This document shows, one piece after another, positions 46,301 through 62,005 of a stretch of 64,000 nt of DNA. This DNA comes from a bacterium BMS3Abin14. Lineage in GTDB: Bacteria; BMS3Abin14. Position 1 is the first letter of the stretch. Every line of letters begins with the position of its first letter. The stretch covers positions 1 through 64,000 of the forward strand of contig BDTG01000004.1 in the NCBI GenBank assembly GCA_002897695.1, written 5' to 3'. Below the pieces are notes generated by a model. That model saw nothing but the letters and a program-made list of their open reading frames with translations, made no database searches and was not told where the DNA came from. The translations under genes and the position numbers were made by a program.

Positions 46301-49300
46301 CATTTTCTGCCCGGGGAAGAGCATGTAACTGGCAAGGTGCTGGAAACGACGGGCTTCCTCAGGCTGAATACGGAGGTGGCGGAGCTCAAGCTGCGACTGT
46401 CTCCAGGTCCGCTCAAGCGCGCGGTGAACCGCCTTCGGATCACTGTATTTATCCAGCAGGGCGAGAAGGGAATCCCTGGTTTCGGCGGCGCCCAATATGA
46501 TGGAGAAGGATACGGTCTGACCGGCCCTGAGCCTGATCCGGCGTCTCAGGCTGAACATGGGGTCAAGGACCATTCCCGTGGACCCGGACAGGGGATTTCG
46601 CAAAGCGTCCGGATTGCCTGGCGACCGCCCCCGCCCAATAAAACGGAGACGGTCGGTCTCCATCTGCCACGGTTCCTTTGATGGCTGATCGAATGTGATC
46701 AAATGCCCCGCCCACACCGGTTCGTCATCGGGGTTTCTACGCCGCCTCCCGGCAACGAGGGCATTGAGTTTTTCCACCCGCTCCGTGAAGACAAACATCT
46801 TCTGGAACGCCGGATGCATTCTGTCGGACCGATGGTCCGCCAGGGAGAGCTCGATGTAGCTCGTAATCTCCAGCACCCTCGGCCGGCCGGATCGATTGAC
46901 GATGGTCACGTGCCGGATCTCCACGTCGTCCTCGGGAGCAACGATGATCCGGCTCCCGGTTTCGATCCCTCCGTCGGAGCGCCTGATCTCCGCATGATCA
47001 AGGGTGAACCCGACGACATAGTTGTCCATTTTTCCGCCAACGGGCTGGTAGCTGTTGCTCCAGACCCTGTCTGTCTCCAGGTCGCGAATATAGCAGAAGG
47101 TACCCCACGCGTCCCGGGTGGTGTCGGCACGCCATCGGGTGAGATCGATCCCGCGCCAGCGGCTGTATCCGCCTCCGGCGTTGGTAACCATCAGGGAATA
47201 GTTCCCGTTGGATATTATCTGTGTCTTCGGTAATGCAGTGTGCGGGGTTCTGAATTTGCTCTCGGCGGGGACAAATTCAGTGGGCATCACGCTTGAGGAA
47301 GCCTGTTCCCGGGCCCGGACATGAAAGAGGGAAGGATTCGGTGGAATTCGCTCATAAAGCAGTGGTTCCAGCGCCTTCACACGCACATCCGAATGGAAGC
47401 GGCGCTGCATGACCTGATTGTGAAGGGCGTTGTCGATAGCAAGAAATCCCATGGCCTGATGATGGGCCATGTAGGTTCTGACAATCACCCCTTTGTCCCC
47501 CTGCCGTTTTTTACGGCGGGAAAAATCGATAGACTCGAAGAAACCGAACCTCCCATAAAGTCCCATCCCGGCAAGCCTGTTCAGATTTCCAATGGCTTCA
47601 GCGGGAACGAGGGACAGGGCCAGCATAGTAGCGTAAGGGGCGACAACCAGATCCTCATCCAGACCACGTTTGAGACCAAGTCCGGGGACCCCGAAGGCCT
47701 GGTACTGATAGATTTTGGAAGCATCCAGGTCGGCATAGGCGGATTCGGAAATACCCCAGGGTACTCCGCGCTGTTTTCCATATTTGATCTGGGTATCCAC
47801 AGCCTCACGGCAGGCCATGTCAAGCAGTGAGTTCTCGTAGTTTTTCTGAAAAAGAAGGGGCATGAGATACTCGAACATCGTCCCGCTCCAGCTGAGCAGA
47901 ACACGCCGGCGGCCCATTGCGCCGAAAGGCCGGGATAGCGCCATCCAGTGCTCGATGGGGACATCCCCCCTGGCCACAGCGACATAACTGGTTAGTCGGG
48001 CCTCGCTGGCCAGGAGATCATAAAAGGCGTTGTCAAGACGCTGATCGTTGATATTGAAACCTACGTGAAAGATCTTCCGTCTCTCATGGTAGAGAAATTT
48101 AAGGTTAATCCCGTCGGCAAGTTCCCTTCCCATCCTGATGAGGTCTTCGACATCTTCCAGGGTCTCCCATGCGGCCCATACAGCCGGGGCCATCGACTCT
48201 GTCAACCCTGCCGGATTACGGGAAGATGGGCTTCCATTTTCCGGCTGCCCGTCAATAACGGACTGGACAAAAGACGCGTTCTCCGCCGCGAGCTGACGGA
48301 GGGACGGCGCCTGATGGAGCAGTTTCCAATCCCTTCGCTCCCCGCCGGCGAGGGCCTCTATCTCCCCTGGATGGTTTTCAAAAAGCATCTCCGCCCATTT
48401 GAGATACCGGTCGATTATCTGATTCCATTCGGCGATTTGACTGTCGACCCGTGCCGCCCAGTAGGCAGCATCCTCAACAGGATTCAGTTCCTCATCATCC
48501 AGCTTGCGGTAATGCATTTGCGGATACCGGTCAACCTCGGCCCTGAGCCCAAGGACCATTTTCCCGGAGGGGGCGGCGATCTCCCTGATTCCTCTGATCA
48601 TCCCCTCCAGTTCGTCATGCGGATCCCCGGTAAGCTCCATCAATTCAGTAATGGTTTTCCCGAATTTGGAGGTGAGGCCCGCATCCCGGAGAGCGTCGCC
48701 GAGAATCAGCACCGTATCGTGAATCCCTCTGAATGTTCTGGGCCCTATTATCGGCTCATCCATCAGCTCTTTGAGCCCATGTTCCAGCGTCCAGAGACTT
48801 CCGATGAAGTTCCCGCTGTCCACGGTGGAGACGTACCCGGGCATCAAAGGCCGCAGGGTTGCCACATCATACCAGTTAAAAAGGTGCCCTTCGTACCGCT
48901 TCAGCTGTTTCAGTGTGGAATGGGTATTCCGCAGGCGCTGTGAAACTTCATCGAGGGTTATGAAACCGAAGTCCCCCGCGGCAAGCACCGTGAGCAGATA
49001 AAGCCCGATGTTCGTCGGACTGGTCCTGGGAGCTATCTCGTCCACATGTGATATCTGATAGTTGTCGGGAGGAAGCCAGTGGGTCCCGGTCCCGACAAAA
49101 TCATCGAATATCCGCCAGGTTTTCCTGGCAATCTTCCTCAGAACCAGGGCCTCACGGCGGGAAAACATCCTTTGCTTCCCCATAACCGTCAGATCCATTC
49201 GCCAGATGATAATTGGGCTGACAAGCCACAGGGCCAGGAAGGGAGCGGCCGGAACAAGGCTCAAGGGGTCCCTCAACCAGATCGCGGCAATCATCAGAAA

Positions 49301-52300
49301 GGCGAGGAATGCATTCCCCATTACCTGAGAAAAGAACTCGTGCATATGCTTCTTGGCTTTCGTCTTTGCCATCTGGGCGGTGGTCCAACGGAGGAGACCC
49401 TTGTGGCTGACAAAGCGGCGATATAGAACCCTGAGGATAGCGTCCGCCGCAAGGCCGGCCTGGTGAACCATGATTGCGATCTCGGCCAAAGAGCGGTTCA
49501 GATCATGTCGGAAGGATCGAAGAATGTTTTTCCTGACATCCCGGTTGGAGGTGAGCCAGGTTGACAGGTTTGCCATAAAAGCGGACATATACAGCAGCCC
49601 GACAAAACCACTGCACAAGAAACCTGCGGCAGGGGACATGAGCCAGGCGGCCGCCAGAAAAGGCACGGAAGCCACCGGCAGGAGGCTCCGGCGAAGATTG
49701 TCGAAAAATTTCCACCTGGCCATAGCCGAAAGCGGATTTTTTTCCCGCCTGCCGTCCTTGACCGGAACTTTCGATAGACACCACTGGGCGATCTGCCAGT
49801 CACCACGAATCCACCGGTGAGTCCTGAAACAGTAGGAATGATAGTCGGCGGGAAACTCGTCGAAAAGCTCGATATCGGTGGCAAGCCCCACCCGGGCGTA
49901 TGCCCCTTCCACCAGGTCGTGGCTGAGCAGGCGGCCATCCGGAAACCTGTTCCTGAGAACCTGTTGCAAAACCTTTGGATCGTATATCCCTTTCCCAAGA
50001 TATGACCCCTCCCCGGTAAGGTCCTGATAGACGTCGGAAACAGCCGTTGTGTAGGGGTCCGTACCCACCGGGTTGGTAAACAGCCGGCTGAACAAGGTGC
50101 CCGTGGCGCTGGGCAGGGAGGTACTGACCCGAGGCTGGATTACGGCATATCCGGAACGGACGACCATTTTTACGGGATCGATTACCGGTCTGTTAAGCGG
50201 GTGAGCCATAGTCTCTATAAGCCGGGCTCCGGTTCCATGGGGCAGCTGCGTGTCGCTGTCCAGGGTAATAACATACCGGATATCCGAGAGACGATCAGGG
50301 TCCCCAACGCGGACGATCTGCCGCCCATTCCGTGGTGATTCGCCGCAAATAAGGCGGTTCAGATCCTCAAGCTTGCCTCTTTTTCTCTCCCATCCCATAT
50401 AACGGTCCTCAGATTCCGCCCATTCCCTTTCCCGGTGAAAAAGGTAGAACCTGTTGGAACCGTATCGGTTGTTCAGCCTCTCAAGCCCTTTTTCCGCAAC
50501 ACTGAAAAGCTCCTCATCGTCCTCCCGGTGGGGTTCCACGTGATCCACAAAATCGGTGAACAACCCGAAGACAAGATTGTGGTCCGGATTTGCCTTGTAG
50601 CGTATTTCGAGGCTCTCCAGGTCCGACATGGCGCCGGCCCGGTCGGTGAGGAGAACAGGGACAACGACCAGGGTTCGAAACTCGTCGGGAATCCCTCTCT
50701 TCTGAAAAAACATCTTCGGCAGCTTCCTTGGCGGAAGAAGGCGGGTTACAAGGTAGTTGACCACCTGGACACCGAACTGGCTGGCCGGAACCAGGGAAAG
50801 AAGGACAAGGATCGCAAGGTAAGCAGGATTTGAGCCGAAGGATAGTCCCAGACCCAGGATAGTTCCCGTCACGGCGAGGGACACGGCGCCGATTGTGGTG
50901 AGATACAGGGAAGTGTGGCGCCTGTAGACCCACTGTAAAACCCTGTTGCGCCTGTTATCCCTGCATTCCAGTCTATCTAGGAGTTCTTCTTTCCCGTCAC
51001 CTATCAGATACCGCCCCACATGTGACGCCGACGGATCGGTTGACACACCGGAACCCTCCATGGCCATTTTTATGGCAAGCTGCGCAACTTCCCTTTCATC
51101 GTGTTTTCCGCATCTCGAAATCTCCTCCGCAGCTTTTCGATAGCTGTCCCTGGTGTAAAAATCCATGGATGAATATATCCCCATGGGGTCGTCACGGAGG
51201 ATCGCCTCCACGGAGCTTTGTTCCTCGAAAACCTCCCGCCAGTCAAACTGCTTAAGCCAACGGAGGCTCGTCATCCCGTTGCCTATGGCGATTTCGTCCG
51301 AGGTCTGGAGCGCCCTCTCCTCACTGATAATGCTCTCCAGCGGGGATCCGACTTTCCTCTCAAGCCATCCCCTGACCGGGTTGAGGATGGATTCCTCGTC
51401 ATAAATGTGATCGATAATCTGGAGGGCAAAGTTTGCGCTGGGATCGGGGAATTCCTCCGTGAGCCTGGACAGGATATTAAATATCTGATCGGGATCATTG
51501 CGCACGGCCACCGCAAGCCTGTTGGACCAGAAATCGGCGCTCTCACTCTCTCGCAGCCAGGAATCCACCTTCTCGAACAAACTGCGGAGGCGGTCCACAA
51601 GAGCGATACGCAGCATGATGGGCAGCGCCCACAACTCCCCGGTCGACAGGGAAGAGACAGACTGATATGCATCCAGAAAGTCACGGATGTTGTGACGATC
51701 CAGCTGACCGTCGGTGTGAATAACGAGTTCAGCGGCGATACCGTAAACCCGGGGATCACCTCTGTAAGGGCCTTCGGTCAGGACAGGAAGCTCATGATAA
51801 AACCTCTTCGACAGGTTCTCACGAACATCCGTGATGTGCCCATGAACGATAAAATAATTGTCCAGTATCCATTCAGCGGAGGTTGAGATGCTCTGTTCAA
51901 ACCGTGACGCTTCAGCCAGCGTCTGGCGGACCTCCAGAATTATCTTCTCGCAGATGGCAAGATGATCGAGAAGGGGCTCCCCCCTTCCCTCGGCAGGCTT
52001 GATGGAATGGGCCTCGGCAAGTTCTCTGGCATGTTCCTCGATGTGGGCGGTGGACAGCGGCTCGTCCTGGTCATTTTCGTCTGCCTTAAGATGAATCTTT
52101 CGAGCGGGATGAGAGGCGAATATGGTGGGCTGATCCCGGCTGATCCGTCGGAGCAGCGCAACGGCCCTCCCAATGGATCTGGGGGAGGCCTGGACAATGA
52201 CCACCGCCTCCTCGGCGATGAGACAGCGTGAATATCGCCCGAGAAGCTCCTGCTCCACCGCTATCCCGAGAAAACGGATAAACGCACGGTGGAAAACAAC

Positions 52301-52591
52301 CCCCAGTATGAAAGAAAAGACCAGGGTGATGGATGTGAAGAACAGGCTCTGGTTTAAGGAAAAACCCAGGAAGGCCGAAAAACCGTATACCAGCACGGGC
52401 ATAAAGATGCCGATAAACAGCCCCGCTATCAGCGCGTAAAATGATGAAACCTCATCGAAGGAGATCACACCGGCCGATGATCTTTGAATGAGCGCGGAAC
52501 GTCGGAAGTGATGTTTTCTCAACTGCTTCAATGCTTCCTCGGCGGCCTCTGCCGAAGGGTAGAATCCAAGAAGGGATCCTGATTTTCTCAT
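43337..52591 (-). CDS. Cyclic beta-1,2-glucan synthase-like giant protein (NdvB family)
   Basis: Encodes 3084 residues. Membrane segments at about 50-110 precede a long regulatory region. A second membrane block (about 560-625) leads to a GT84-type glycosyltransferase domain with DSDTQ (near 780) and HRWIRGDWQIAQW (near 930), then further membrane segments. A glucoamylase-like domain follows (THWLPPDNYQ near 1170). From about 1800 to the end lie two GH94/carbohydrate-binding regions with the catalytic GSGDWNDGMN motif near 2745. In rhizobia this enzyme primes, extends and cyclises osmoregulatory glucans. It is larger than or similar to classical NdvB. Co-transcription with cls suggests an envelope role. 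Confidence 0.92.
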   Translation of the reverse strand: MRKSGSLLGFYPSAEAAEEALKQLRKHHFRRSALIQRSSAGVISFDEVSSFYALIAGLFIGIFMPVLVYGFSAFLGFSLNQSLFFTSITLVFSFILGVVFHRAFIRFLGIAVEQELLGRYSRCLIAEEAVVIVQASPRSIGRAVALLRRISRDQPTIFASHPARKIHLKADENDQDEPLSTAHIEEHARELAEAHSIKPAEGRGEPLLDHLAICEKIILEVRQTLAEASRFEQSISTSAEWILDNYFIVHGHITDVRENLSKRFYHELPVLTEGPYRGDPRVYGIAAELVIHTDGQLDRHNIRDFLDAYQSVSSLSTGELWALPIMLRIALVDRLRSLFEKVDSWLRESESADFWSNRLAVAVRNDPDQIFNILSRLTEEFPDPSANFALQIIDHIYDEESILNPVRGWLERKVGSPLESIISEERALQTSDEIAIGNGMTSLRWLKQFDWREVFEEQSSVEAILRDDPMGIYSSMDFYTRDSYRKAAEEISRCGKHDEREVAQLAIKMAMEGSGVSTDPSASHVGRYLIGDGKEELLDRLECRDNRRNRVLQWVYRRHTSLYLTTIGAVSLAVTGTILGLGLSFGSNPAYLAILVLLSLVPASQFGVQVVNYLVTRLLPPRKLPKMFFQKRGIPDEFRTLVVVPVLLTDRAGAMSDLESLEIRYKANPDHNLVFGLFTDFVDHVEPHREDDEELFSVAEKGLERLNNRYGSNRFYLFHREREWAESEDRYMGWERKRGKLEDLNRLICGESPRNGRQIVRVGDPDRLSDIRYVITLDSDTQLPHGTGARLIETMAHPLNRPVIDPVKMVVRSGYAVIQPRVSTSLPSATGTLFSRLFTNPVGTDPYTTAVSDVYQDLTGEGSYLGKGIYDPKVLQQVLRNRFPDGRLLSHDLVEGAYARVGLATDIELFDEFPADYHSYCFRTHRWIRGDWQIAQWCLSKVPVKDGRREKNPLSAMARWKFFDNLRRSLLPVASVPFLAAAWLMSPAAGFLCSGFVGLLYMSAFMANLSTWLTSNRDVRKNILRSFRHDLNRSLAEIAIMVHQAGLAADAILRVLYRRFVSHKGLLRWTTAQMAKTKAKKHMHEFFSQVMGNAFLAFLMIAAIWLRDPLSLVPAAPFLALWLVSPIIIWRMDLTVMGKQRMFSRREALVLRKIARKTWRIFDDFVGTGTHWLPPDNYQISHVDEIAPRTSPTNIGLYLLTVLAAGDFGFITLDEVSQRLRNTHSTLKQLKRYEGHLFNWYDVATLRPLMPGYVSTVDSGNFIGSLWTLEHGLKELMDEPIIGPRTFRGIHDTVLILGDALRDAGLTSKFGKTITELMELTGDPHDELEGMIRGIREIAAPSGKMVLGLRAEVDRYPQMHYRKLDDEELNPVEDAAYWAARVDSQIAEWNQIIDRYLKWAEMLFENHPGEIEALAGGERRDWKLLHQAPSLRQLAAENASFVQSVIDGQPENGSPSSRNPAGLTESMAPAVWAAWETLEDVEDLIRMGRELADGINLKFLYHERRKIFHVGFNINDQRLDNAFYDLLASEARLTSYVAVARGDVPIEHWMALSRPFGAMGRRRVLLSWSGTMFEYLMPLLFQKNYENSLLDMACREAVDTQIKYGKQRGVPWGISESAYADLDASKIYQYQAFGVPGLGLKRGLDEDLVVAPYATMLALSLVPAEAIGNLNRLAGMGLYGRFGFFESIDFSRRKKRQGDKGVIVRTYMAHHQAMGFLAIDNALHNQVMQRRFHSDVRVKALEPLLYERIPPNPSLFHVRAREQASSSVMPTEFVPAESKFRTPHTALPKTQIISNGNYSLMVTNAGGGYSRWRGIDLTRWRADTTRDAWGTFCYIRDLETDRVWSNSYQPVGGKMDNYVVGFTLDHAEIRRSDGGIETGSRIIVAPEDDVEIRHVTIVNRSGRPRVLEITSYIELSLADHRSDRMHPAFQKMFVFTERVEKLNALVAGRRRRNPDDEPVWAGHLITFDQPSKEPWQMETDRLRFIGRGRSPGNPDALRNPLSGSTGMVLDPMFSLRRRIRLRAGQTVSFSIILGAAETRDSLLALLDKYSDPKAVHRALERTWRQSQLELRHLRIQPEEARRFQHLASYMLFPGQKMRSPEERLRQNVLGQAGLWAYGISGDLPILAVTLADSRDINLVTQLLQAHTYWRRHGFMADFLIINEESSGYDQPLHGQLTRLINGHTMYTGTEQPGGVFLRNADQIPEESLTLLLSAANVAMVAARGPLPQQLGAPPARRHLPVKHLPKRLPKEEASTALRHMELKLTNGMGGFSTDGREYVITLRSGEQTPAPWVNIMANPSFGCLVSESGAGFSWYGNSQRNRLTAWSNDPVSDPPSDAVYIRDEDSGIFWTPTPNPIREVEDYRVRHGAGYTVFEHNSHGIEQELTIFVPLGEDGSGDPVRIQRLRLKNDTPEARNLSVTFYLEWVLGEDRESSQMFVNTAWDSIAQMMMVTNRYNPDYPDRVAFASISPHPDSCTADRTEFLGRNGNLSSPEAMRRVSLSGKTGAGLDPCSAIQTMLTIPPGEKAEVICLLGQGASRDEARDLTRKYRHSVTVQESLNATMGWWDRLLGKVEIKTPVESVNLMVNRWLLYQVVSCRIWARSGFYQSGGAFGFRDQLQDVLALLYAYPRIARSHILTAAGRQFAEGDVQHWWHPPGGAGIRSRCSDDLLWLPYAVIRYVHHTGDAGILDEMVPFIWGEALDEDVHEAFMSPTETARKTTLYDHCMKAIERGATSGPHGLPLIGSGDWNDGMNRVGLGGKGESVWLAWFLVDVLRGFSELSRDRGRDEDSEAFRERAAGIAEAVEKSSWDGRWYRRAYFDDGTPLGSAQNDEDRIDSIPQSWAVISGGADGERSRQAVESAWDELVLKDEGLALLLTPPFDGSQKDPGYIKGYPPGVRENGGQYSHGAVWLAKALAGLGDGDRAVDLLTMLNPIEHAGDPEKMQRYRTEPYVMAADVYRLPGHVGQGGWTWYTGAAGWMYRVWIEDVLGIRVKGDRLMVDPVIPGSWDMFSVRYRRGKAIYEITVQNPDGVGKGVSWIEMDGRRLDENAVPLVEEEEAGIVEAAIKHKILVRMGEGRIKTDAGIT

Positions 52592-53318: not shown

Positions 53319-54728
53319 ATGACAGGTGTGAAGGTTCTTATCGTCGATGATGAAGCCGTGATCCGGAGGGGACTCTGCCGTGTCCTTGAGGGAAGGGGCT
53401 ATCAGGTGGAAACCTCCGAAAGCGGTTTCATGGCCATCGAAAGGCTCCAGAAAACGCCCTTTGACATAGTCATCACTGACCTCAAAATGCCGGGAATGGA
53501 CGGGATCGAGGTACTGAAGGCCATCAAGATCCTGCAGCCGGCCGTGCCGGTCATCATCATTACCGGGTATTCCACCGTGGGGACAGCCGTGGAGGCCATG
53601 AAAAATGGGGCCTTCGACTATATTTCCAAACCCTTTACACCCGCACAGATCATCGAGATGGTTGAAAAGGCGCTGGAACAGCGAACCGTTCAGATGCAGC
53701 GCACCCATCCCGAGGTCGGGCACAACCTGAACGGGTTCGAGGTCTTTATCGGTGAGAGTGAAGCGATGCAGAAGGTATACATCAGGATCAAGCAGGTTGC
53801 GCCCACCGACAGTACGGTTCTTATCACGGGTCAGAGCGGAACCGGAAAGGAACTGGTTGCCAGGGCTATTCATAAGAACAGCATGCGCTGCAATAAGCCA
53901 TTTGTAGCTGTCGACTGCACATCCCTTGTGGAGAACCTTCTGGAGAGTGAACTGTTCGGCCATGTAAAAGGCTCCTTCACCGGGGCGGTACAGACTAAAA
54001 TGGGCCTGTTCAAGGTCGCAGACGGAGGGACCCTGTTCCTCGATGAGATATCCAACATCAGCCTGGCCACCCAGGGCAAACTATTGCGGGTCCTCCAGGA
54101 GTTCGAAATAACCCCCATCGGGGGAACCGAACCCCTCCCCATCGACATCCGTCTCATAACCGCCACCAACCGGGACCTGGATGAACTGGTCGATGAGGGG
54201 CTTTTCCGAAAGGACCTGTTCTTCAGGCTAAATATCATCCCTGTCCACCTGCCTCCCCTGGTTGATCGAAAGGGGGATCTTCCCCTTCTCATCGGACATT
54301 TCCTTAAAAAGTTCTCCGAGGAGATGGGCAAGGACATCCATGGGGTATCACCGGCCGCCATGTCCATCCTGACGCAGCATCCCTTCACCGGGAACGTCAG
54401 GGAGCTGGAAAATATTATCGAAAGAGCTGTCGTCCTCACCAACAGCAAGCTCATTCAACCTGAGGATCTGGAAATTCGGCCGGTCGGCGACAGTCCTTCC
54501 AAGACTATTTCCGAGCCTGTTCCCCTGAGCGCGGAGAGCCTGAAAGAGATCAAGAGACAGGTCAGAGAAGAAGCGGTCAGGCCCATTGAACGCGCCTTCC
54601 TTCTCCAGGCCCTTGAGCGAAACGACTGGAACGTCACCCGGGCCGCCAGGGATGTGGGAATGTTGAGGCCCAACTTTCAGGCGCTGCTAAAAAAACAGGG
54701 GATTTCCGCGAGGAACCATACAGGATGA
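53319..54728 (+). CDS. Sigma-54-dependent response regulator (NtrC family)
   Basis: Encodes 469 residues: a receiver domain (VLIVDDEAVIRR, phospho-acceptor Asp54 in VITDLKMPGMDG), an AAA+ domain (GQSGTGKE Walker A; sigma-54 contact loop GSFTGA instead of the usual GAFTGA; DGGTLFLDEI Walker B), and a Fis-type helix-turn-helix (NDWNVTRAARDVGMLRPNFQ). ATG at 53319 follows GGGGGAG. The kinase gene follows by 77 bases. Its target could be the -24/-12 promoter at 61989-62005 of the convergent operon. The Ser in the GAFTGA loop is a tolerated but less common variant. Confidence 0.93.
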   Translation: MTGVKVLIVDDEAVIRRGLCRVLEGRGYQVETSESGFMAIERLQKTPFDIVITDLKMPGMDGIEVLKAIKILQPAVPVIIITGYSTVGTAVEAMKNGAFDYISKPFTPAQIIEMVEKALEQRTVQMQRTHPEVGHNLNGFEVFIGESEAMQKVYIRIKQVAPTDSTVLITGQSGTGKELVARAIHKNSMRCNKPFVAVDCTSLVENLLESELFGHVKGSFTGAVQTKMGLFKVADGGTLFLDEISNISLATQGKLLRVLQEFEITPIGGTEPLPIDIRLITATNRDLDELVDEGLFRKDLFFRLNIIPVHLPPLVDRKGDLPLLIGHFLKKFSEEMGKDIHGVSPAAMSILTQHPFTGNVRELENIIERAVVLTNSKLIQPEDLEIRPVGDSPSKTISEPVPLSAESLKEIKRQVREEAVRPIERAFLLQALERNDWNVTRAARDVGMLRPNFQALLKKQGISARNHTG

Positions 54729-54805: not shown

Positions 54806-56359
54806 GTGCGTCTGAAACTGATCGTTCAGATCTCGCTGATTACAGGAATCGTCCTGTTTTTTACCTCCGCCCTTTTCGGTTATTTCAACATCTCCACCCT
54901 CAAACATGCCTTCCTCGAGAGTACAGTAACCGACCTCGACCATCTGAGCGAAACCATACTTAGAACCGTATTCCATCAGATGCTGAAAAACGACAGGGAT
55001 GAGATCCAGGTTACGATAAGGGAGGTCGCCCAACAGAAGGGGATTGAGCAGGTCAGGCTTATCAACAGAGAGGGAGTGGTGGCCCTCTCCACCGGAAGGG
55101 CTGGAATCAGCGCCGGCCCCGGTGGCGTAAAGGCCCCTGCCTGCATAATTTGCCATAACTATGGAATGTCCTGGGAAGATCCCTCCCCCATGGCCCGAAG
55201 CAGAATGTTCCTTGACAGTAACGGGAACAAAGTTCTCGGCCTGGTCAAGCCCATATATAATGAGAAGGTGTGCTGGACCGGTGAATGCCATACCCATTCC
55301 AGGGATACACATCTTCTGGGCCTTCTGGACATTACCATCTCCGCCGCCCCCATGCTGTCGAAGATCCGCAATTATCGCAACAATACAATCATTCAGATAC
55401 TTTTCCTGATCCTCTCCATATCACTCTGCCTCACCCTGCTCACCCAGAGGCTGATCGTCAAGCCGGTTCATACGCTGTTGGAACACACACGGGCCGTCGG
55501 CAGGGGAAAATGGCGTTTCATAGAGTCGGTGCCGGGGGATGAACTGGGGGAACTTGCCGAGGCGTTCAACGACATGACAGGCAAACTGAAAAAGGCCCGG
55601 GAGGAACGGGATGAGTGGGCAGCAACCCTGGAAACCCGCGTGGAGGAACGAACGCGCAAAATAAAGGAGATGCAGTCCGTTCTTATCCGCTCGGAAAAAC
55701 TGGCGTCCCTCGGGGAACTCGTCGCGGGGATCGCCCACGAGCTCAATAATCCTCTTACGGGGATCATGATACACGCTCCTTTCATCGCGGAGGACCCACG
55801 GCTGGACGAAGGGCTGAAAGAGGATTGCCAAACTATTATCCACGAGGCCAAGCGCTGCTCCAGGATCGTCAGGAAACTGCTGGACTTCGCCAGGGTTTCC
55901 GATCCCCAAAAAACGATGCAGTCGGTCAATGAGGCCATTAATCGAAGCATTGCCCTGATTGAGCACCATGCCGATTTCAACGACATCGAGATCGTCAAAG
56001 AGTATGCTCCTGACCTTCCGAATACATTGATGGACGCTTCCCAGATCGAACAGGTCTTCATCAACATGATGGTTAACGCTAGCCAGGCAATGCCGGCGGG
56101 GGGGAAGCTGACCATCGGAACGGGGTTAAATGCGGCAGGGGACAGCATCTACATCCGGATCGAGGACACAGGCTGCGGCATTCCGAAAGAAAACATGGAA
56201 AAACTCTTCGATCCCTTTTTCAGCACCAAGGGAAACAAGGGAACCGGCCTGGGCCTTTCGGTTTCCTACGGAATCATCCAGTCCCACGGCGGTGAGATCG
56301 AGGTTGACAGCAAGCCGGACAGAGGGACAGTCTTTATCATTACTCTTCCCGTCGCATGA
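54806..56359 (+). CDS. Sensor histidine kinase with periplasmic c-type haem motifs
   Basis: Encodes 517 residues. A membrane segment (7-27) precedes a periplasmic domain of about 165 residues containing CIICH (113-117) and CWTGECH (156-162), i.e. CxxCH and a Cx4CH variant. A second membrane segment (about 193-213), a HAMP linker and a coiled coil lead to the HisKA domain with AHELNNPLTG (His311) and an HATPase domain (N box MMVNASQAM, G1 DTGCGIP, G2 GTGLGLS). The haems, if attached, would let it sense redox state, NO/CO or quinol status. The start is GTG at 54806. It is paired with the upstream response regulator. Confidence 0.9.
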   Translation: MRLKLIVQISLITGIVLFFTSALFGYFNISTLKHAFLESTVTDLDHLSETILRTVFHQMLKNDRDEIQVTIREVAQQKGIEQVRLINREGVVALSTGRAGISAGPGGVKAPACIICHNYGMSWEDPSPMARSRMFLDSNGNKVLGLVKPIYNEKVCWTGECHTHSRDTHLLGLLDITISAAPMLSKIRNYRNNTIIQILFLILSISLCLTLLTQRLIVKPVHTLLEHTRAVGRGKWRFIESVPGDELGELAEAFNDMTGKLKKAREERDEWAATLETRVEERTRKIKEMQSVLIRSEKLASLGELVAGIAHELNNPLTGIMIHAPFIAEDPRLDEGLKEDCQTIIHEAKRCSRIVRKLLDFARVSDPQKTMQSVNEAINRSIALIEHHADFNDIEIVKEYAPDLPNTLMDASQIEQVFINMMVNASQAMPAGGKLTIGTGLNAAGDSIYIRIEDTGCGIPKENMEKLFDPFFSTKGNKGTGLGLSVSYGIIQSHGGEIEVDSKPDRGTVFIITLPVA

Positions 56360-56364
56360 ACCCA

Positions 56365-56880
56365 TCACTCATCCAGCAGCGCGAGGAGTTCCCGTTCCTG
56401 CCTTATTGCCTCACTGCAAACTGACCAGACCCGATAGTTCTCAAGACCGAGAATCGTCAGGCCCGCGAAGAACACCGGCCAGAAATTCTCCCGAAGCCCG
56501 CCGGCATAGTAGTAGAACAGATAAAATGCCGAAAGATACCCGATGTGCGACCAGCCCCGGTAGCGATCGGGGCCTGTGCTCAAATGGCCCAGGATGAGAG
56601 CGAGGGCGGAAAAGGCGTAGACGACCAGTGCGATGCTGATGAGGGTGGTGGGAGGGGAGCCGCCCAGAAGATGCCGCATTTTTTCGGAAATTGGGGGGAG
56701 AAACCGGAAATTTGCCACTGCCCCCAGGCTAACCAGGAAAAAAAGGACCATCCACCAAATACTGTAACGTATCTGTTGTTTAAGGTATCGGATTCGATCA
56801 AGGATTTTGCTGCGGCGCGAGTCCTGGCTCGGCACACCCTGTCCGGAGCCAAGCGATGACTTTGTTCCTGTTCTCGCCAT
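56365..56880 (-). CDS. Membrane protein of unknown function, four helices
   Basis: Encodes about 171 residues. A basic, probably cytoplasmic N-terminus (about 1-35, RIRYLKQQIRYSIW) precedes four hydrophobic helices, with short loops containing STGPDRYRGWSH and a C-terminal charged helix. I do not recognise a family. It follows the haem-sensor gene by 66 bases on the same strand and is the last gene of that operon. The start at 56880 is tentative. Confidence 0.6.
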   Translation of the reverse strand: MARTGTKSSLGSGQGVPSQDSRRSKILDRIRYLKQQIRYSIWWMVLFFLVSLGAVANFRFLPPISEKMRHLLGGSPPTTLISIALVVYAFSALALILGHLSTGPDRYRGWSHIGYLSAFYLFYYYAGGLRENFWPVFFAGLTILGLENYRVWSVCSEAIRQERELLALLDE

Positions 56881-56946
56881 AAGAGCACTCAGCTCGCCAT
56901 TTAGCCCGAGGACTTTCAAGGGTACTCGGGGCCACACCCAAGGGGA

Positions 56947-57804
56947 CTAAACCGGATCAACCTCCTCTTCTTTTGACATACTATCCTCTTCCCTGATTTT
57001 TCTCAATTCCATTTCAGCAAGATGTCTCCCCCTGGCCATGTCAAGATAGGTCCTTGCAAGTGACTCAACTTCCCTGACTCCTTTTGGAAGATCGTTATCC
57101 AGGCTCCCCTCGGAGACCTTTTTCACATAGTCCATCAACTGGCCAATCGGATGCAGAAGGTTCCGTCTGAGGATGGCGCTTACCCCGCCCACCGACAAGA
57201 TGAGAACCATTATGCAGAAAACCGTCATTCTCCAGCGCAGGGCGCGCAGTCTTGTGTCCAGAGGATCGGGCGACAGACCGACATCCAGTGTTCCGAGAAT
57301 TTTCTGGTGGGGAGGGTGAAAATGACAGTCACCCGCGGAGCATCCGGTATCGTTGTATATGGGCGCGGTGATAGCCAGCACATTGCGGTTCTTTTTATTT
57401 ACGAACCGCCTCGCCTGCTGCATGGACCCCAACCGTGCCGTCGGCTTGGAACCGCTGTGACACCCTATACAGCCGGCTGTCTTTTTGTCCACGACCTGGT
57501 TTACCTCCCCGGGGTCCGAGGAGAACATGATAACCCCTTTTTTATTGAAGATACGAAGATGCTCGACTCCCTTCTGGGCGCCGATACTGTCTATTACACG
57601 GTAAAGGGTTTCCCTGTCCGACTTCATCATGGTGTAGCGCGTTGAACTGATGACGGTATCGGCAAGGCTGACCTCATGCTGTATCGCATCCCTCAGAAGG
57701 TCCCCCTTAATGGAGGAGTAGAGAATGAGGCTGCAGACGATGACAAAGCCGGTCAGGGAAAGCGCGATCGGGACAATGGCTTTGGAAACGAAGTTGTTAA
57801 ACAT
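56947..57804 (-). CDS. Kinase-less membrane protein with the same haem sensor segment
   Basis: Encodes 285 residues. A membrane segment (11-31), a periplasmic domain with CIGCH (112-116) and CSAGDCH (155-161), a second membrane segment (about 194-212) and a HAMP-like helix pair follow, then a short charged tail with no output domain. Motif order, spacing (CxxCH then Cx4CH, about 43 residues apart) and flanking helices match the sensor half of the kinase at 54806-56359. ATG at 57804 follows AAAGGAGG. It may gate electron flow, act as a co-sensor, or carry signals to the kinase. Confidence 0.85.
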   Translation of the reverse strand: MFNNFVSKAIVPIALSLTGFVIVCSLILYSSIKGDLLRDAIQHEVSLADTVISSTRYTMMKSDRETLYRVIDSIGAQKGVEHLRIFNKKGVIMFSSDPGEVNQVVDKKTAGCIGCHSGSKPTARLGSMQQARRFVNKKNRNVLAITAPIYNDTGCSAGDCHFHPPHQKILGTLDVGLSPDPLDTRLRALRWRMTVFCIMVLILSVGGVSAILRRNLLHPIGQLMDYVKKVSEGSLDNDLPKGVREVESLARTYLDMARGRHLAEMELRKIREEDSMSKEEEVDPV

Positions 57805-57859
57805 GTCCACTCCTCCTTTCCGGCCTTCCGTAAGCGCGGTGATGATTTCTGAAAAGCGC

Positions 57860-59152
57860 TCAACCCTGAGGTGGTCTTGAGGTAGTCCTGTACGCCGCGG
57901 ACGGCGCTGCCCTCCACGGATACAGGATTGGGAGCCGGTAGAGGATAAAACGATACACCACCACGAACAGGGCAAACAATGTTACCGATATGATCAGTTC
58001 GAACGGGTGGGGGATTTCCTGATAAAGGTTCCAGTTGAAACTGATCAGGGCAGTATCCAGACGGTTCATCACCACACCAAAAATGGTGAGAAAAGCGGTA
58101 AACCGGGCCAGACCTACGCTGTTTTTCCTGATGGCGATGGAGAAGAGGATGAGGGGAAGAATTACCCCAAGGAAGATCTCCAGCATGAACAAACGACCCC
58201 AGCCGGTTGCCAGATAGGCCCACTCGTTGTCATGGGCAATCCCTATAAGCTTGATAGCCAGGTAGGTTATCAGAGCCATGGCTGAGCCTTTGGCCAGACT
58301 GATGGTAATGGTCCCGAGATTATCCAGAAACTCACGGCTGCATCTCCAGGCCATGGTTTTTTCAACAATGGTGCTCACCGCAATGATCATGCACAGCCCC
58401 GCGAATACCGATGAACAGAGAAAAAATATCCAGAGAAACTCCTGCGAATACCAGAGTGGATGCACCTTTCCCGGCGCATAGGTAAAGAGGGCTCCCAAGG
58501 CCCCCTGGTGGAGAGTTGACAGGATAATCCCGGCCACGGTCAGCCCGATGGTCCCACTTTTTATAAACTTCTTCGCGTTGGGCCAGTTGATCCATTCAAA
58601 AAACGACTCGGAAACTTCCATCATCTGCACTGACAGGTAGATCGCAACATGCCACCCGACCAGAAAGAGGACAGCAGCCGTACCCCAGGAAACAAACATG
58701 GGATAGTAGAGCCGCCACGGACGCCCAAGATCCATCAGGAGGTAAATAACCGCAAAGGAATATCCCATCAATCCGTTGAGCAGCGCCAGTTGCAATATGG
58801 GCTTGAATTTGCTCTGGCCAAACAGTTCCACCGCAGTACCGAGCAGAAACCCAGAGGCGGAGAGTGGGACCATTACGAAGAGTCCGAAACCCAGGAAAAG
58901 ACCCCACGGATAATCGTTGGAAGCGCGGGTAACGGCGCCGAGGCCCGCGGCATACCTGTACAGGATTAGAGGAAAGCCCACGGCAAAGATCAGGGCTATG
59001 ACCCAATTGAACGGGTTATGCAGGACCTGCCGCAAGTACTCCCTGGGCGAGAATCCCAGCAGAAGTTTCTGCCTGAAGCTCCACGTATGGCCATCATCAG
59101 GATCATTCAGAGAGTCGATCGGCCTAAAGCCATTTTCCACAAGGCGGTTCAT
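57860..59152 (-). CDS. NrfD/HybB-family quinone-interacting membrane subunit
   Basis: Encodes 430 residues with about ten membrane helices. Characteristic segments are DYPWGLFLGFGLFVMVPLSASGF, LMDLGRPWRLYYPMF and the LHQGALGALFTY loop. NrfD/HybB/HmcC proteins exchange electrons between menaquinol and the adjacent HybA-like Fe-S subunit. The last bases of the Fe-S gene overlap its start by four bases, so the two are translationally coupled. Confidence 0.92.
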   Translation of the reverse strand: MNRLVENGFRPIDSLNDPDDGHTWSFRQKLLLGFSPREYLRQVLHNPFNWVIALIFAVGFPLILYRYAAGLGAVTRASNDYPWGLFLGFGLFVMVPLSASGFLLGTAVELFGQSKFKPILQLALLNGLMGYSFAVIYLLMDLGRPWRLYYPMFVSWGTAAVLFLVGWHVAIYLSVQMMEVSESFFEWINWPNAKKFIKSGTIGLTVAGIILSTLHQGALGALFTYAPGKVHPLWYSQEFLWIFFLCSSVFAGLCMIIAVSTIVEKTMAWRCSREFLDNLGTITISLAKGSAMALITYLAIKLIGIAHDNEWAYLATGWGRLFMLEIFLGVILPLILFSIAIRKNSVGLARFTAFLTIFGVVMNRLDTALISFNWNLYQEIPHPFELIISVTLFALFVVVYRFILYRLPILYPWRAAPSAAYRTTSRPPQG

Positions 59153-60096
59153 TCTCCCTGGCCCTCCTCTCCATTATGCGGCTCTTTATCTTCCGTTTCT
59201 TCCTTTCCCCCGGTCGCCAGCAGGTGAAATCCCATAAACATGGCGGGCCAGATGGCCAGGACCATCGGCACGGTGGAAAGGAAACTCTTTGCGTTGTCCA
59301 GGATCGGATGGTGCTGAAGGGTGGTGTCGAAACCCACCTGGTCGAAAGGAACGCCGGAAAGGTACATCCAGGACGTTCCGCCTACCTCCGTCTCCCCGTA
59401 GACATAGTCTATATACTTCTCGGGTTCCGACCGGATCCGCTCATGGGCGATCTTTATGAGGGTTTTCCGGTGGCCAAAGGTGAGGGTCTCCTGGGGGCAA
59501 GCCTCTACACAGGCGGGAGGCTTCCCATATTTCAGGCGGGTGTCGTAGCAGAAGATACATTTTCTTATCCTGGGCTCGAAAGCGCTGGAATAGGAGAATG
59601 CCGGGATTCGGAAGGGACAGGCGATCATGCAGTTTCTGCATCCGACACAGACATTCGGGTTGTAGATAACCGCTCCCTCATCTGTCTTAGTGTAGGCGTT
59701 GACGAAACACGAGGTCAGACATGCCGGTTCGTTGCAATGGTTGCACTGGATCTTTCGATAGACCGGCCCGCCTGATCCCTCCGTCTCATATCGGTTGACG
59801 ACCGTGTAGGCCCCCTCGTCGGTTCTGCGCTTCTGTGTGCCTTCGTGGAAGGTCTGGTCAAAAACCGAAGGATCGTCGAAGGGAAGGTCGGGCTCAGGAA
59901 GGCCCTGTTCCAGGTTGCACGCCGCCTCGCAGGTTCGGCAGCCGACACACCTGGTCAGGTCCACCAGCACCCCCATCCCCTCCGGGTAACCCTCGAACTC
60001 AGCCATGCCCAGGGCATTTTTGGTTGAGAACAACACCAGGGCGCTGCCGCCGGCAACGGTTGCCTTCAGGAATCTTCTCCGGCTTATACCACTCAT
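59149..60096 (-). CDS. Tat-exported four-cluster Fe-S subunit (HybA/HmcB-like)
   Basis: Encodes about 315 residues. The Tat signal is SRRRFLKATVAGGSALVLF. Cluster motifs are CVGCRTCEAACNLEQ, CNHCNEPACLTSC, CVGCRNCMIACPFR and CIFCYDTRL...CVEACP, i.e. four [4Fe-4S] sites. A C-terminal membrane anchor (about 268-290) and an acidic tail follow. It would link periplasmic cytochrome haems to the NrfD subunit. The start at 60096 places the Tat motif at the N-terminus. Confidence 0.92.
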   Translation of the reverse strand: MSGISRRRFLKATVAGGSALVLFSTKNALGMAEFEGYPEGMGVLVDLTRCVGCRTCEAACNLEQGLPEPDLPFDDPSVFDQTFHEGTQKRRTDEGAYTVVNRYETEGSGGPVYRKIQCNHCNEPACLTSCFVNAYTKTDEGAVIYNPNVCVGCRNCMIACPFRIPAFSYSSAFEPRIRKCIFCYDTRLKYGKPPACVEACPQETLTFGHRKTLIKIAHERIRSEPEKYIDYVYGETEVGGTSWMYLSGVPFDQVGFDTTLQHHPILDNAKSFLSTVPMVLAIWPAMFMGFHLLATGGKEETEDKEPHNGEEGQGE

Positions 60097-60147
60097 AATG
60101 TTCCAGCCCCCTTTCCATGTCGCAAGACGATCCCTTTCCATGAGAAC

Positions 60148-60675
60148 CTATTCATGCTGCCCTCCGATCCCGCCGCCTGAAGGCGCATATTTGCCGGAAT
60201 GATAGAATTTATTGCCCGCATCAGTCCTTTTGTGACAGTCCGTACACCCTGAGGGCGCTCCCATTTCAACGTGGCAATTGAGGCATCTCAGGTGATAGGC
60301 GCCTTTGAGTCCAGGTATGTCGTTATGAAACCGATCCGGATCGGACTCCATCGCCTTGATATGTTTTGCGGTGAAAGGATCTTTAACGTGGCAATCCGGG
60401 CAAGCCGCGGAGGATGTGCCTTTGTTATCCGAATGGCATTTCGCACATTTTTTCTCCGCAACGTTCGCTCCAAACGCGTGATGATGGCAGACAGAGCAAT
60501 CGTCCGCGATGTTCATGTGCATCGCGTGGTCAAAATCCACCCCACCGTAGAGGTTGGACAGGGAGTCTATCAGCAAGGATGAGGGCGGATCACCGGCGGC
60601 GCCGAAAGTTGGACCGGCGATAAAAAACAGCGCCACGATCATCCCTGCCAGTGCCCATTTCCTTCTCCTTTTCAT
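60148..60675 (-). CDS. Pentahaem cytochrome c (class III-like)
   Basis: Encodes about 175 residues. A signal peptide precedes five CxxCH motifs (CSVCH, CAKCH, CPDCH, CLNCH, CTDCH) interspersed with extra histidines suitable as distal ligands. ATG at 60675 follows GGGAGGG. It is the periplasmic electron carrier of the complex with the HybA- and NrfD-like proteins. Compared with the Hmc complex, which has a 16-haem cytochrome, this one is much smaller. Confidence 0.9.
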   Translation of the reverse strand: MKRRRKWALAGMIVALFFIAGPTFGAAGDPPSSLLIDSLSNLYGGVDFDHAMHMNIADDCSVCHHHAFGANVAEKKCAKCHSDNKGTSSAACPDCHVKDPFTAKHIKAMESDPDRFHNDIPGLKGAYHLRCLNCHVEMGAPSGCTDCHKRTDAGNKFYHSGKYAPSGGGIGGQHE

Positions 60676-60706
60676 CCGTTCGTCCCTCCCATGGTGTGCA
60701 GACTCG

Positions 60707-60904
60707 TTATTTATCATGTCTCTCATGTTTCCCGACATCCCCCCGGTATTTGATAACGTCCCTGTAAAATATCGGAAACACTACGAAAAACCCGAGGCAG
60801 ATAAGGTATTCGACGGCCTTGACATAATTATAGTAGTCCACAAGAGTGTGTATCTGCACCAATCTGCCGATGAAATCGAAAAACTCTGTTATCAGATGGA
60901 CCAT
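60707..60904 (-). CDS. Small membrane protein, 65 residues
   Basis: An ATG at 60904 follows AAGGAG with seven bases of spacing. The product has an aromatic, amphipathic N-terminus (MVHLITEFFDFIGRLVQIHT), one membrane helix (YLICLGFFVVFPIFYRDVI) and a basic tail with several His. It is co-directional with the cytochrome gene (31-base gap). Small one-helix subunits such as HmcD occur in related complexes, and this may be the equivalent. No homology could be tested. Confidence 0.7.
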   Translation of the reverse strand: MVHLITEFFDFIGRLVQIHTLVDYYNYVKAVEYLICLGFFVVFPIFYRDVIKYRGDVGKHERHDK

Positions 60905-60925
60905 GGAATATCTCCTTTTTCGCTG

Positions 60926-61183
60926 TTATTCGCCCATCCGGGTGGATTCGGTCGCCGGGATCTCTTTTCTGGAATGGCCGGTCACCAGCGCCTTCATGAA
61001 ACCAAGGAACAGCACAAGGGCCGGGACCAACTGGGCCACAACGATCAGCGCACAGACACCGATAAAGATGCTTACAAGAATTCCGCTCTTGTAAACCACC
61101 GAGGTGTCCACGGCGAACGCCGGGCTTATGGCCGCCAGAACCGCAGCCAGAGCCAACGAGATTGTCGAGATAACCGTTTTCAT
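60926..61183 (-). CDS. Small exported membrane protein, paralogue 2
   Basis: Encodes 85 residues with a cleavable-looking signal (MKTVISTISLALAAVLAAIS, ending AFA), a short exposed segment and one long helix (IFIGVCALIVVAQLVPALVLF). The helix shares IFIGV.A.IV..QL.PA.VLF with the protein at 61683-61931. GGAGAGGA lies upstream of the ATG. Function unknown; the pair flanks the receiver-like protein. Confidence 0.75.
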   Translation of the reverse strand: MKTVISTISLALAAVLAAISPAFAVDTSVVYKSGILVSIFIGVCALIVVAQLVPALVLFLGFMKALVTGHSRKEIPATESTRMGE

Positions 61184-61204
61184 TTTAATCCTCTCCTTTC
61201 CGTC

Positions 61205-61639
61205 CTACCCCTGTTGCATCTCCCCGCTCGGTTTCCCCGGCAGGACCTTTCTGGACAGCCTCCTGTCCGTTGAGTTATCGAAGGCACAGTGGACCACCTG
61301 TCTCAGTTCCTCCCTGTCATCGCTGTTAACGGGCTTTAAGGCATGGTAGAAGATCCCCTCTCGACGGAACCTTCGGATGAGGGGCAGGGACTCCTCATTT
61401 GATACGAGGATAATGATCAAATCCCGGTTGCACCTCTTCAAAAGGGGGATAATTTCCCTTGCCGATAATCCGTCGAACTCACTGCCCAGCAGGATGACCT
61501 TGGCCTCTTTCTTCAGGACATCACGAAGGACCACATCCACGGAATCCGCCTCGATAACCTCGTACTCGCTCCTGCTGAAAAACCCGGCGATCCGTCTGCG
61601 AGTCTCCTCATCCTTGTCCGCTACGAGAAGAAGCTGCAT
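61205..61639 (-). CDS. Receiver-like domain protein lacking the phospho-acceptor Asp
   Basis: Encodes 144 residues with a CheY-like pattern: LLLVADKDEETRRRI at the N-terminus, hydrophobic beta strands, and a conserved Lys in YHALKPVNSDDRE (the KP pair). The position normally held by the phospho-acceptor Asp (end of strand 3) reads VILLGSEFDG, so the acid is replaced by Gly/Ser. The acidic pocket at the start is partly retained. ATG at 61639 follows GGGGGAAGG. It is a probable pseudo-receiver that signals without phosphorylation. Redox operons of the Hmc type also encode a response regulator (rrf1). Confidence 0.75.
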   Translation of the reverse strand: MQLLLVADKDEETRRRIAGFFSRSEYEVIEADSVDVVLRDVLKKEAKVILLGSEFDGLSAREIIPLLKRCNRDLIIILVSNEESLPLIRRFRREGIFYHALKPVNSDDREELRQVVHCAFDNSTDRRLSRKVLPGKPSGEMQQG

Positions 61640-61682
61640 GGTCCTTCCCCCTTTCCAGGAAATACCCTGGCAGGTCATCCAA

Positions 61683-61931
61683 TCAGGAGACGCCGGACTT
61701 TCCATTCTCCGTCGCTCTCCCATGGTTTTTCGCCTTTCCGAAAATGGCCACCAGCATAGACCCGAAAAGAACCATAGCCGGGATCAACTGGAAGGCAACA
61801 ATGGCAGCGATAACTCCGATAAAAATCCATCCAATTAGACCGATGCCCCCACTTTCTGCGCCGCTCGCAGCAAAAGCCGAATTCGCGCACAGGAGGGTCA
61901 TCAACGTTACGACTCGAACCGTGTTTTTCAT
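61683..61931 (-). CDS. Small exported membrane protein, paralogue 1
   Basis: Encodes about 82 residues: a signal peptide (ending NSAFA), a Gly-rich turn, and the helix GLIGWIFIGVIAAIVAFQLIPA shared with the protein at 60926-61183. AAGGAGGTGAGAACA directly precedes ATG 61931. It is the first gene of the electron-transfer operon, downstream of the -24/-12 promoter. Function unknown; the duplication suggests a structural role in the complex. Confidence 0.78.
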   Translation of the reverse strand: MKNTVRVVTLMTLLCANSAFAASGAESGGIGLIGWIFIGVIAAIVAFQLIPAMVLFGSMLVAIFGKAKNHGRATENGKSGVS

Positions 61932-61988: not shown

Positions 61989-62005
61989 CGCATAAAACGT
62001 TCCAA
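61989..62005 (-). promoter_or_regulatory. Candidate sigma-54 (-24/-12) promoter
   Basis: The minus strand reads TTGGAACGTTTTATGCG. GG and GC are separated by the obligatory 12 bases, and the -24 half (TTGGAACG against TTGGCACG) has one mismatch. The -12 half (ATGC against TTGC) is weaker. It would start transcription about 50 bases before the ATG at 61931. A sigma-54-dependent regulator is encoded nearby at 53319. Confidence 0.5.

Follow-up and report, generated by a model that had tools for sequence, protein, structure and literature searches.

A nine-gene operon on the minus strand of a 64,000-nucleotide stretch from the bacterium BMS3Abin14 (assembly GCA_002897695.1, contig BDTG01000004.1, positions 1 to 64,000; hereafter the window) is read here as a sigma54-controlled, haem-sensor-regulated quinone–cytochrome module. 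Its redox core appears to be exchangeable within a constant frame of genes, and a trio made up of two small membrane proteins (smA and smB) and a stand-alone pseudo-receiver (psREC) would act as a generic helper; we assign this reading as a whole a probability of about 0.72. The operon is real and conserved, and its core represents a pared-down relative of a complex already known. Which inner-membrane quinone–cytochrome oxidoreductase is used determines the redox potential at which bacteria respiring metals or electrodes can live, and a frame with exchangeable oxidoreductases would explain how such bacteria shift their redox set-point. Naming such operons by the core alone overlooks half of the conserved unit.

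The operon extends from 61931 to 56365 with intergenic gaps of at most 55 nucleotides (Table 1). A previous interpretation made from the DNA alone (the sequence-only reading) had joined the genes from smA to the membrane subunit in one operon, which is borne out; it had left unmentioned the eighth gene, which its coordinates take in, and the ninth, both of which belong to the operon as well, and also the adjoining two-component system.

The redox core and its relation to Hmc

The core consists of a pentahaem cytochrome, an iron–sulphur (Fe-S) protein with a twin-arginine translocation (Tat) signal and a C-terminal membrane tail, and an NrfD-family membrane subunit. All three lie where the sequence-only reading had placed them: five CxxCH motifs are found in the cytochrome, and the membrane subunit matches PF03916 with 51.8 bits (cutoff 25.8). 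Its choice of Hmc as nearest relative of the core also holds by profile. The Fe-S protein scores 385 bits against NF045715 (HmcB), which is below the equivalog cutoff of 420 and marks it as a close homologue, and the membrane subunit scores 352 bits against NF045714 (HmcC), for which the cutoff is 550. This HmcC cutoff is reached in none of the 12 genomes, all of one family, that make up our sample of the window's phylum, a small one. The residues of the quinone site and of the ion half-channel in NrfD-like membrane subunits have been published (PMC8076601). The C-terminal part of the pentahaem cytochrome resembles the C-terminus of HmcA; against the profile of the 16-haem HmcA itself (NF045713) the protein does not match, with 39 bits for a cutoff of 400.

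A 65-residue one-helix protein had been rightly noted by the sequence-only reading and counted among the unusual partners of the core. Thirteen of its 14 homologues match NF045712 (HmcD; best E 2.5e-4), the window copy weakly so (14 bits, cutoff 34). Being HmcD-like, the protein probably belongs with the Hmc-type core and not among the unusual partners. HmcE and HmcF were matched by none of the nine operon genes, the rest of the genome not having been searched for them. Judged by these profiles, the core is an Hmc-type quinone–cytochrome module, yet no Hmc complex, and would work like the periplasmic half of Hmc.

Like Hmc (HmcABCDEF) of Desulfovibrio vulgaris, the window operon encodes HmcB-, HmcC- and HmcD-like proteins with a presumed quinone–cytochrome function. 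Regulators adjoin the operon in both cases, although the regulators themselves differ, those of D. vulgaris being rrf1/rrf2 (PMC10924467). Whereas Hmc has a 16-haem cytochrome, the NarI-like cytochrome b HmcE, and HmcF, the window operon has the pentahaem cytochrome, is without HmcE and HmcF, and carries in addition the trio and two downstream accessory genes. Acquisition of an entire Hmc operon by horizontal transfer was rejected, since the window operon lacks HmcA, HmcE and HmcF. Viral contigs searched with the HmcC-like protein gave no match, and a plasmid collection searched with the Fe-S protein gave general FdnH/HybA-type homologues only.

Three-gene modules with a tail-anchored Fe-S protein and a HybB-like quinol oxidase have also been described (PMC10924467). 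They share with the window a Tat-exported, C-tailed Fe-S protein, a HybB-like subunit and a c-type cytochrome; however, this cytochrome is often octahaem and the modules have no conserved flanking genes, whereas flanks of the window type are strongly conserved. NetBCD, weighed as a name for the module and set aside, denotes in the literature a system located next to CymA in Aeromonas.

Conservation of the operon

In the window's phylum the trio is present in 11 of the 12 genomes, most of which keep the full gene order, and eight have one HmcC-family protein each. The absence of the core from G003 and G009 was left unused, both genomes being about 72% complete and the G003 sequence breaking off into N letters behind smA. 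A scan of named genomes returned 80 loci, mostly from Desulfuromonadia and Desulfobulbales, 54 of them with enough flanking sequence. A haem-sensor gene lies downstream in 35 of these (Desulfuromonadia type). All 35 have the HmcD-like gene, the cytochrome and the DUF2304-like gene; 28 also have psREC, and 30 have one or more small proteins. The remaining 19 loci, of Desulfobulbales type in all but one, present the cytochrome–HmcB–HmcC core without any frame, again with one exception. Near the core of Desulfogranum marinum (L116:13919-16889), three HmcD-like open reading frames of 98-101 amino acids lie off the usual place of hmcD, and similar displaced copies were seen in other Desulfobulbales loci. 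In the class to which Desulfuromusa belongs, 98 of 146 genomes carry psREC, with between one and four copies per genome. A sample of 395 genomes spanning the phylum of Desulfogranum contained it in 41, and the 192 genomes from the Desulfogranum class gave no copy.

The sequence-only reading knew of no described complex with exactly this set. That the set is singular is not sustained, since its order is found again, far beyond chance, across the window's phylum and at dozens of loci in Desulfuromonadia. Its accessory genes also agree in order and domains with those surrounding the CbcBA/Cbc5 core of Geobacter (PMC7726332, PMC11434368). The literature searched, which did not extend to the 2021 CbcBA paper, contained no paper naming this exact gene set.

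Exchange of the core inside a constant frame

In two genomes of the window's phylum, G004 and G006, the place of the Hmc-type core, after the small proteins and ahead of the haem-sensor gene, is taken by a heptahaem cytochrome with a cytochrome b561 (PF01292). The exchange can be followed at the nucleotide level between G006 and G007, two species of a single genus. Identity between them is 86% over smA, psREC, smB and roughly the first 50 nucleotides of hmcD; the cores that follow are non-homologous, and identity returns at 83-93% from the start codon of the haem-sensor gene onward. What is left of hmcD in G006, the stub MLDLLRQFFGSTGDTVKV, can still be read and marks one junction of the swap. 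Between the cores of G006 and G004, identity is 71%. A chimeric contig was considered as the cause of the swap and is unlikely: a single contig of 9.5 kb carries the new core together with its two flanks, the hmcD stub is recognisable and the same core type occurs independently in G004. Also in G006, a second smB-like open reading frame (L028:3602-3955) opens with 18 codons from the start of hmcD, a scar left by core exchange.

HmcC and full-length CbcA-like proteins are mutually exclusive within the window's phylum, and Hmc-type and CbcAB-type cores alternate in Desulfuromonadia too. A tree of the haem-sensor protein requires at least six core changes, five of them forced by well-supported branches, and a tree of the sigma54 regulator requires five, all forced; both are quick trees whose support is the Shimodaira–Hasegawa-like approximate likelihood ratio test only. 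Another arrangement is seen at L240:4724-9567, where two small proteins, a receiver-like protein, a nine-haem cytochrome and a cytochrome b-like protein follow a sigma54 regulator.

A neighbourhood search for the small proteins together with the cytochrome had been proposed as a check of the sequence-only reading, which treated them as partners in one Hmc-like operon. This search shows that the small proteins and psREC travel with at least two unrelated cores, and probably a third, and also alone; they are therefore not subunits specific to an Hmc-like complex. That the trio stays with the frame when the core changes likewise speaks against a core-specific subunit. In the literature searched, neither a modular frame whose core has repeatedly been exchanged in place nor a trio of pseudo-receiver and small proteins was described.

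The small-protein and pseudo-receiver trio

Two small exported paralogues sharing one helix pattern and flanking a receiver-like protein without acceptor aspartate (Asp) had been recognised from the DNA alone, and both descriptions stand. A search with smB recovers the smA gene at E 2e-7 with 36% identity, and each protein is predicted to have a signal peptide and one long helix. In 185 of 191 distinct small-protein sequences, a QxxP motif is embedded in about 31 consecutive residues without charge. No family of Pfam or NCBIfam was matched by the small proteins.

psREC matches PF00072 with 32.7 bits (cutoff 30.2); its AlphaFold2 model has a predicted local distance difference test score of 85, and the nearest solved folds are Spo0F and CheY-like. 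In the window copy the acceptor position at the end of strand 3 is occupied by glycine (Gly), in VILLGSEFDG, and in all 76 distinct core-linked copies it is Gly or serine. Asp is found there in six distinct orphan copies, in which asparagine replaces a residue of the acidic pocket. Orphan and core-linked copies differ at this position (Fisher P 3e-5), but since all the Asp copies belong to one clade, the difference does not count as independent evidence.

Divergent sets of two small proteins and a receiver, with Asp at the acceptor place and an altered acidic pocket, were seen at L239, L240, L241, L246 and L247; in receivers of the L239-L241 type the pocket acids are replaced, as read off the sequence. 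Genes of the trio or of part of it, with no cytochrome genes nearby, occur at L141, L147, L194, L196, L208 and L211. At L235 (G634) there are two complete sets of the smA-psREC-smB type, the first preceding the core and the second following the DUF2304-like gene.

Haem sensors, regulators and promoter

The histidine kinase that converges on the operon and the product of the eighth gene have a common periplasmic domain with two haem-type motifs (hhalign 100%, E 3e-40). This domain is weakly similar to PF21563 (E about 0.001) and to PDB entries 3b42 and 3b47 (E 0.006), the haem-c PAS sensors of Geobacter. The window sensors differ from these in their CxxCH and CxxxxCH motifs, and the HAMP protein has no output domain. 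As it has no kinase domain, the eighth gene product may tune the kinase or itself carry electrons.

A sigma54-type site precedes the first cassette gene in most loci. Its score is at least 12 in 45 of 49 upstream regions, compared with 14% of shuffles, and at least 13 in 32 of 49, compared with 2% of shuffles. Three of the 49 regions are second records of the same genomes, and the background is approximate in that the shuffles permuted two-base blocks.

Comparison with Geobacter CbcBA/Cbc5

In Geobacter sulfurreducens, Cbc5 (CbcEDCBA/CbcBA) comprises the heptahaem CbcA (PF09699), CbcB (PF01292), CbcC, the c-type CbcD and the membrane protein CbcE (PMC7726332, PMC11434368), and the descriptions of CbcA and CbcB (PMC7726332) fit the swapped core of the window's relatives. 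At L212 the order is smA, psREC, smB, a second smB, heptahaem cytochrome c, cytochrome b, 12-haem cytochrome c, haem-sensor protein and DUF2304-like protein, flanked by a divergent sigma54 regulator and haem kinase. Set against Cbc5, a frame of this type comprises the trio, the core, a one-CxxCH protein at the position of CbcD, a membrane protein at that of CbcE, and the sigma54 regulator and haem kinase beside them. In the window, HmcD-cytochrome-HmcB-HmcC stands in place of CbcA-CbcB and there is no 12-haem CbcC-like gene; a heptahaem CbcA and a b561-type CbcB are absent from the window operon and present in G004, G006 and L212-like loci.

The eighth and ninth window genes appear to correspond to CbcD and CbcE, judging by order, motifs, haem counts and domains set against the published descriptions. 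The identity of CbcBA-like loci with particular GSU genes we infer from order, haem counts and domains. By its position the window sigma54 regulator may be the counterpart of BccR, and the three genes beside cbcA in G. sulfurreducens are presumably the trio. Given such an exchangeable frame, these three overlooked genes beside CbcBA would become candidates for a common helper or sensor.

Proposed function and alternatives

Cores of this family are menaquinol:cytochrome c oxidoreductases that work in either direction. The module is most likely a reversible menaquinol:cytochrome c oxidoreductase, with an electron path deduced from the protein families. Menaquinol would be oxidised at the HmcC-like subunit, and electrons would pass through the Fe-S clusters of the HmcB-like protein to the pentahaem cytochrome and on to soluble periplasmic cytochromes, in a direction that is perhaps reversible. 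Around this core, the constant frame would consist of smA-psREC-smB in front, the haem sensor and the DUF2304-like protein behind, and the haem kinase and sigma54 regulator beside; the core within it would be exchangeable, of Hmc type in the window and of CbcAB type elsewhere. Purely as a hypothesis, we propose that the trio is a generic, phosphorylation-independent membrane helper of quinone–cytochrome complexes, acting in assembly, placement or activity control, and that psREC docks on the cytoplasmic ends of smA and smB. That two paralogous one-helix proteins and a pseudo-receiver are a new general accessory unit, phosphate-independent, indifferent to the core and kept through swaps of NrfD, b561 and possibly a third core in a sigma54 operon, is a tentative proposition to which we give slightly less than even odds.

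Several observations weigh against the reading of the whole as a framed module with a generic helper. Hmc-type cassettes without the upstream trio (L069, L071, L072, L074) indicate that the trio is not essential everywhere, and trios without a redox core occur in some genomes. In addition, members with an Hmc-type core are known from their genes alone, and the direction of electron flow is not readable from sequence.

Among the alternatives, a signalling role for the trio would be the most serious competitor, though we consider it rather unlikely. psREC would bind the haem kinase or the sigma54 regulator as a decoy or anti-activator, the small proteins would tether it to the membrane, and the redox complex would feed back on its own transcription. 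The receiver fold of psREC is consistent with this, as are the haem-sensing kinase, the kinase-less sensor copy and the sigma54 regulator of the cassette, the persistence of the frame, regulators included, through core changes, and the related set behind a sigma54 regulator and before another cytochrome pair at L240; the orphan trios L141, L194, L196 and L208, however, have no kinase or regulator nearby. It is improbable that smA and smB are instead structural one-helix subunits of the redox complex, akin to HmcD, with psREC as a cytoplasmic cap. Their one-helix topology, their place in the same operon, always directly before the core genes, and the conserved intramembrane QxxP would suit such subunits, but the same trio accompanies the unrelated HmcC (NrfD family) and CbcB (cytochrome b561 family) cores and is also found with no core. 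An ordinary Hmc complex with HmcA, HmcE and HmcF encoded elsewhere, to which the HmcB, HmcC and HmcD homology might point, is very improbable: HmcB and HmcC stay under their equivalog cutoffs, as do all HmcC-family matches in the phylum, the cytochrome has five haems, HmcE and HmcF are missing from the operon, and dozens of relatives retain exactly this reduced core.

Features of the window and of the host genome

Table 1. Position and strand of the operon genes, their putative promoter and the adjoining regulators in the window
Feature	Position	Strand	Remarks
smA, 82-residue exported one-helix protein	61683..61931	-	intramembrane QxxP
psREC, stand-alone pseudo-receiver, 144 residues	61205..61639	-	Gly at the acceptor Asp position
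smB, 85-residue paralogue of smA	60926..61183	-	predicted signal helix 2-23 and long helix 33-69
HmcD-like one-helix protein, 65 residues	60707..60904	-	
Exported pentahaem c-type cytochrome	60148..60738	-	likely start 60675; five CxxCH
HmcB/HybA-like Fe-S protein	59149..60096	-	Tat signal and C-terminal membrane tail
HmcC/NrfD-family membrane subunit, putative quinone site	57860..59152	-	PF03916
Haem-sensor/HAMP protein without kinase	56947..57804	-	eighth gene; CxxCH and CxxxxCH
DUF2304-like membrane protein	56365..56937	-	ninth and last operon gene
Histidine kinase	54806..56359	+	dihaem-type sensor domain like that of 56947-57804; converges on the redox operon
Sigma54-dependent response regulator	53319..54728	+	intact receiver Asp, GSFTGA; partner of the kinase
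Sigma54-type (-24/-12) promoter-like site TGGAACGTTTTATGCG	61989..62004	-	57 nucleotides before the smA start codon

The host genome holds further multihaem clusters. Contig C46 (L223:9205-12928) encodes an 11-haem cytochrome, a cytochrome b-like protein and a 10-haem NapC-like protein in a row, and contig C32 (L224:489-7263) a 12-haem NapC-like protein, a tetrahaem cytochrome, an Fe-S protein and an NrfD-like subunit, a second cluster of the quinone–cytochrome type. These clusters fit respiration through periplasmic cytochromes. Elsewhere in the window (43337-52591), a protein of 3084 amino acids with glucoamylase-like and GH94 domains resembles cyclic beta-glucan synthases.

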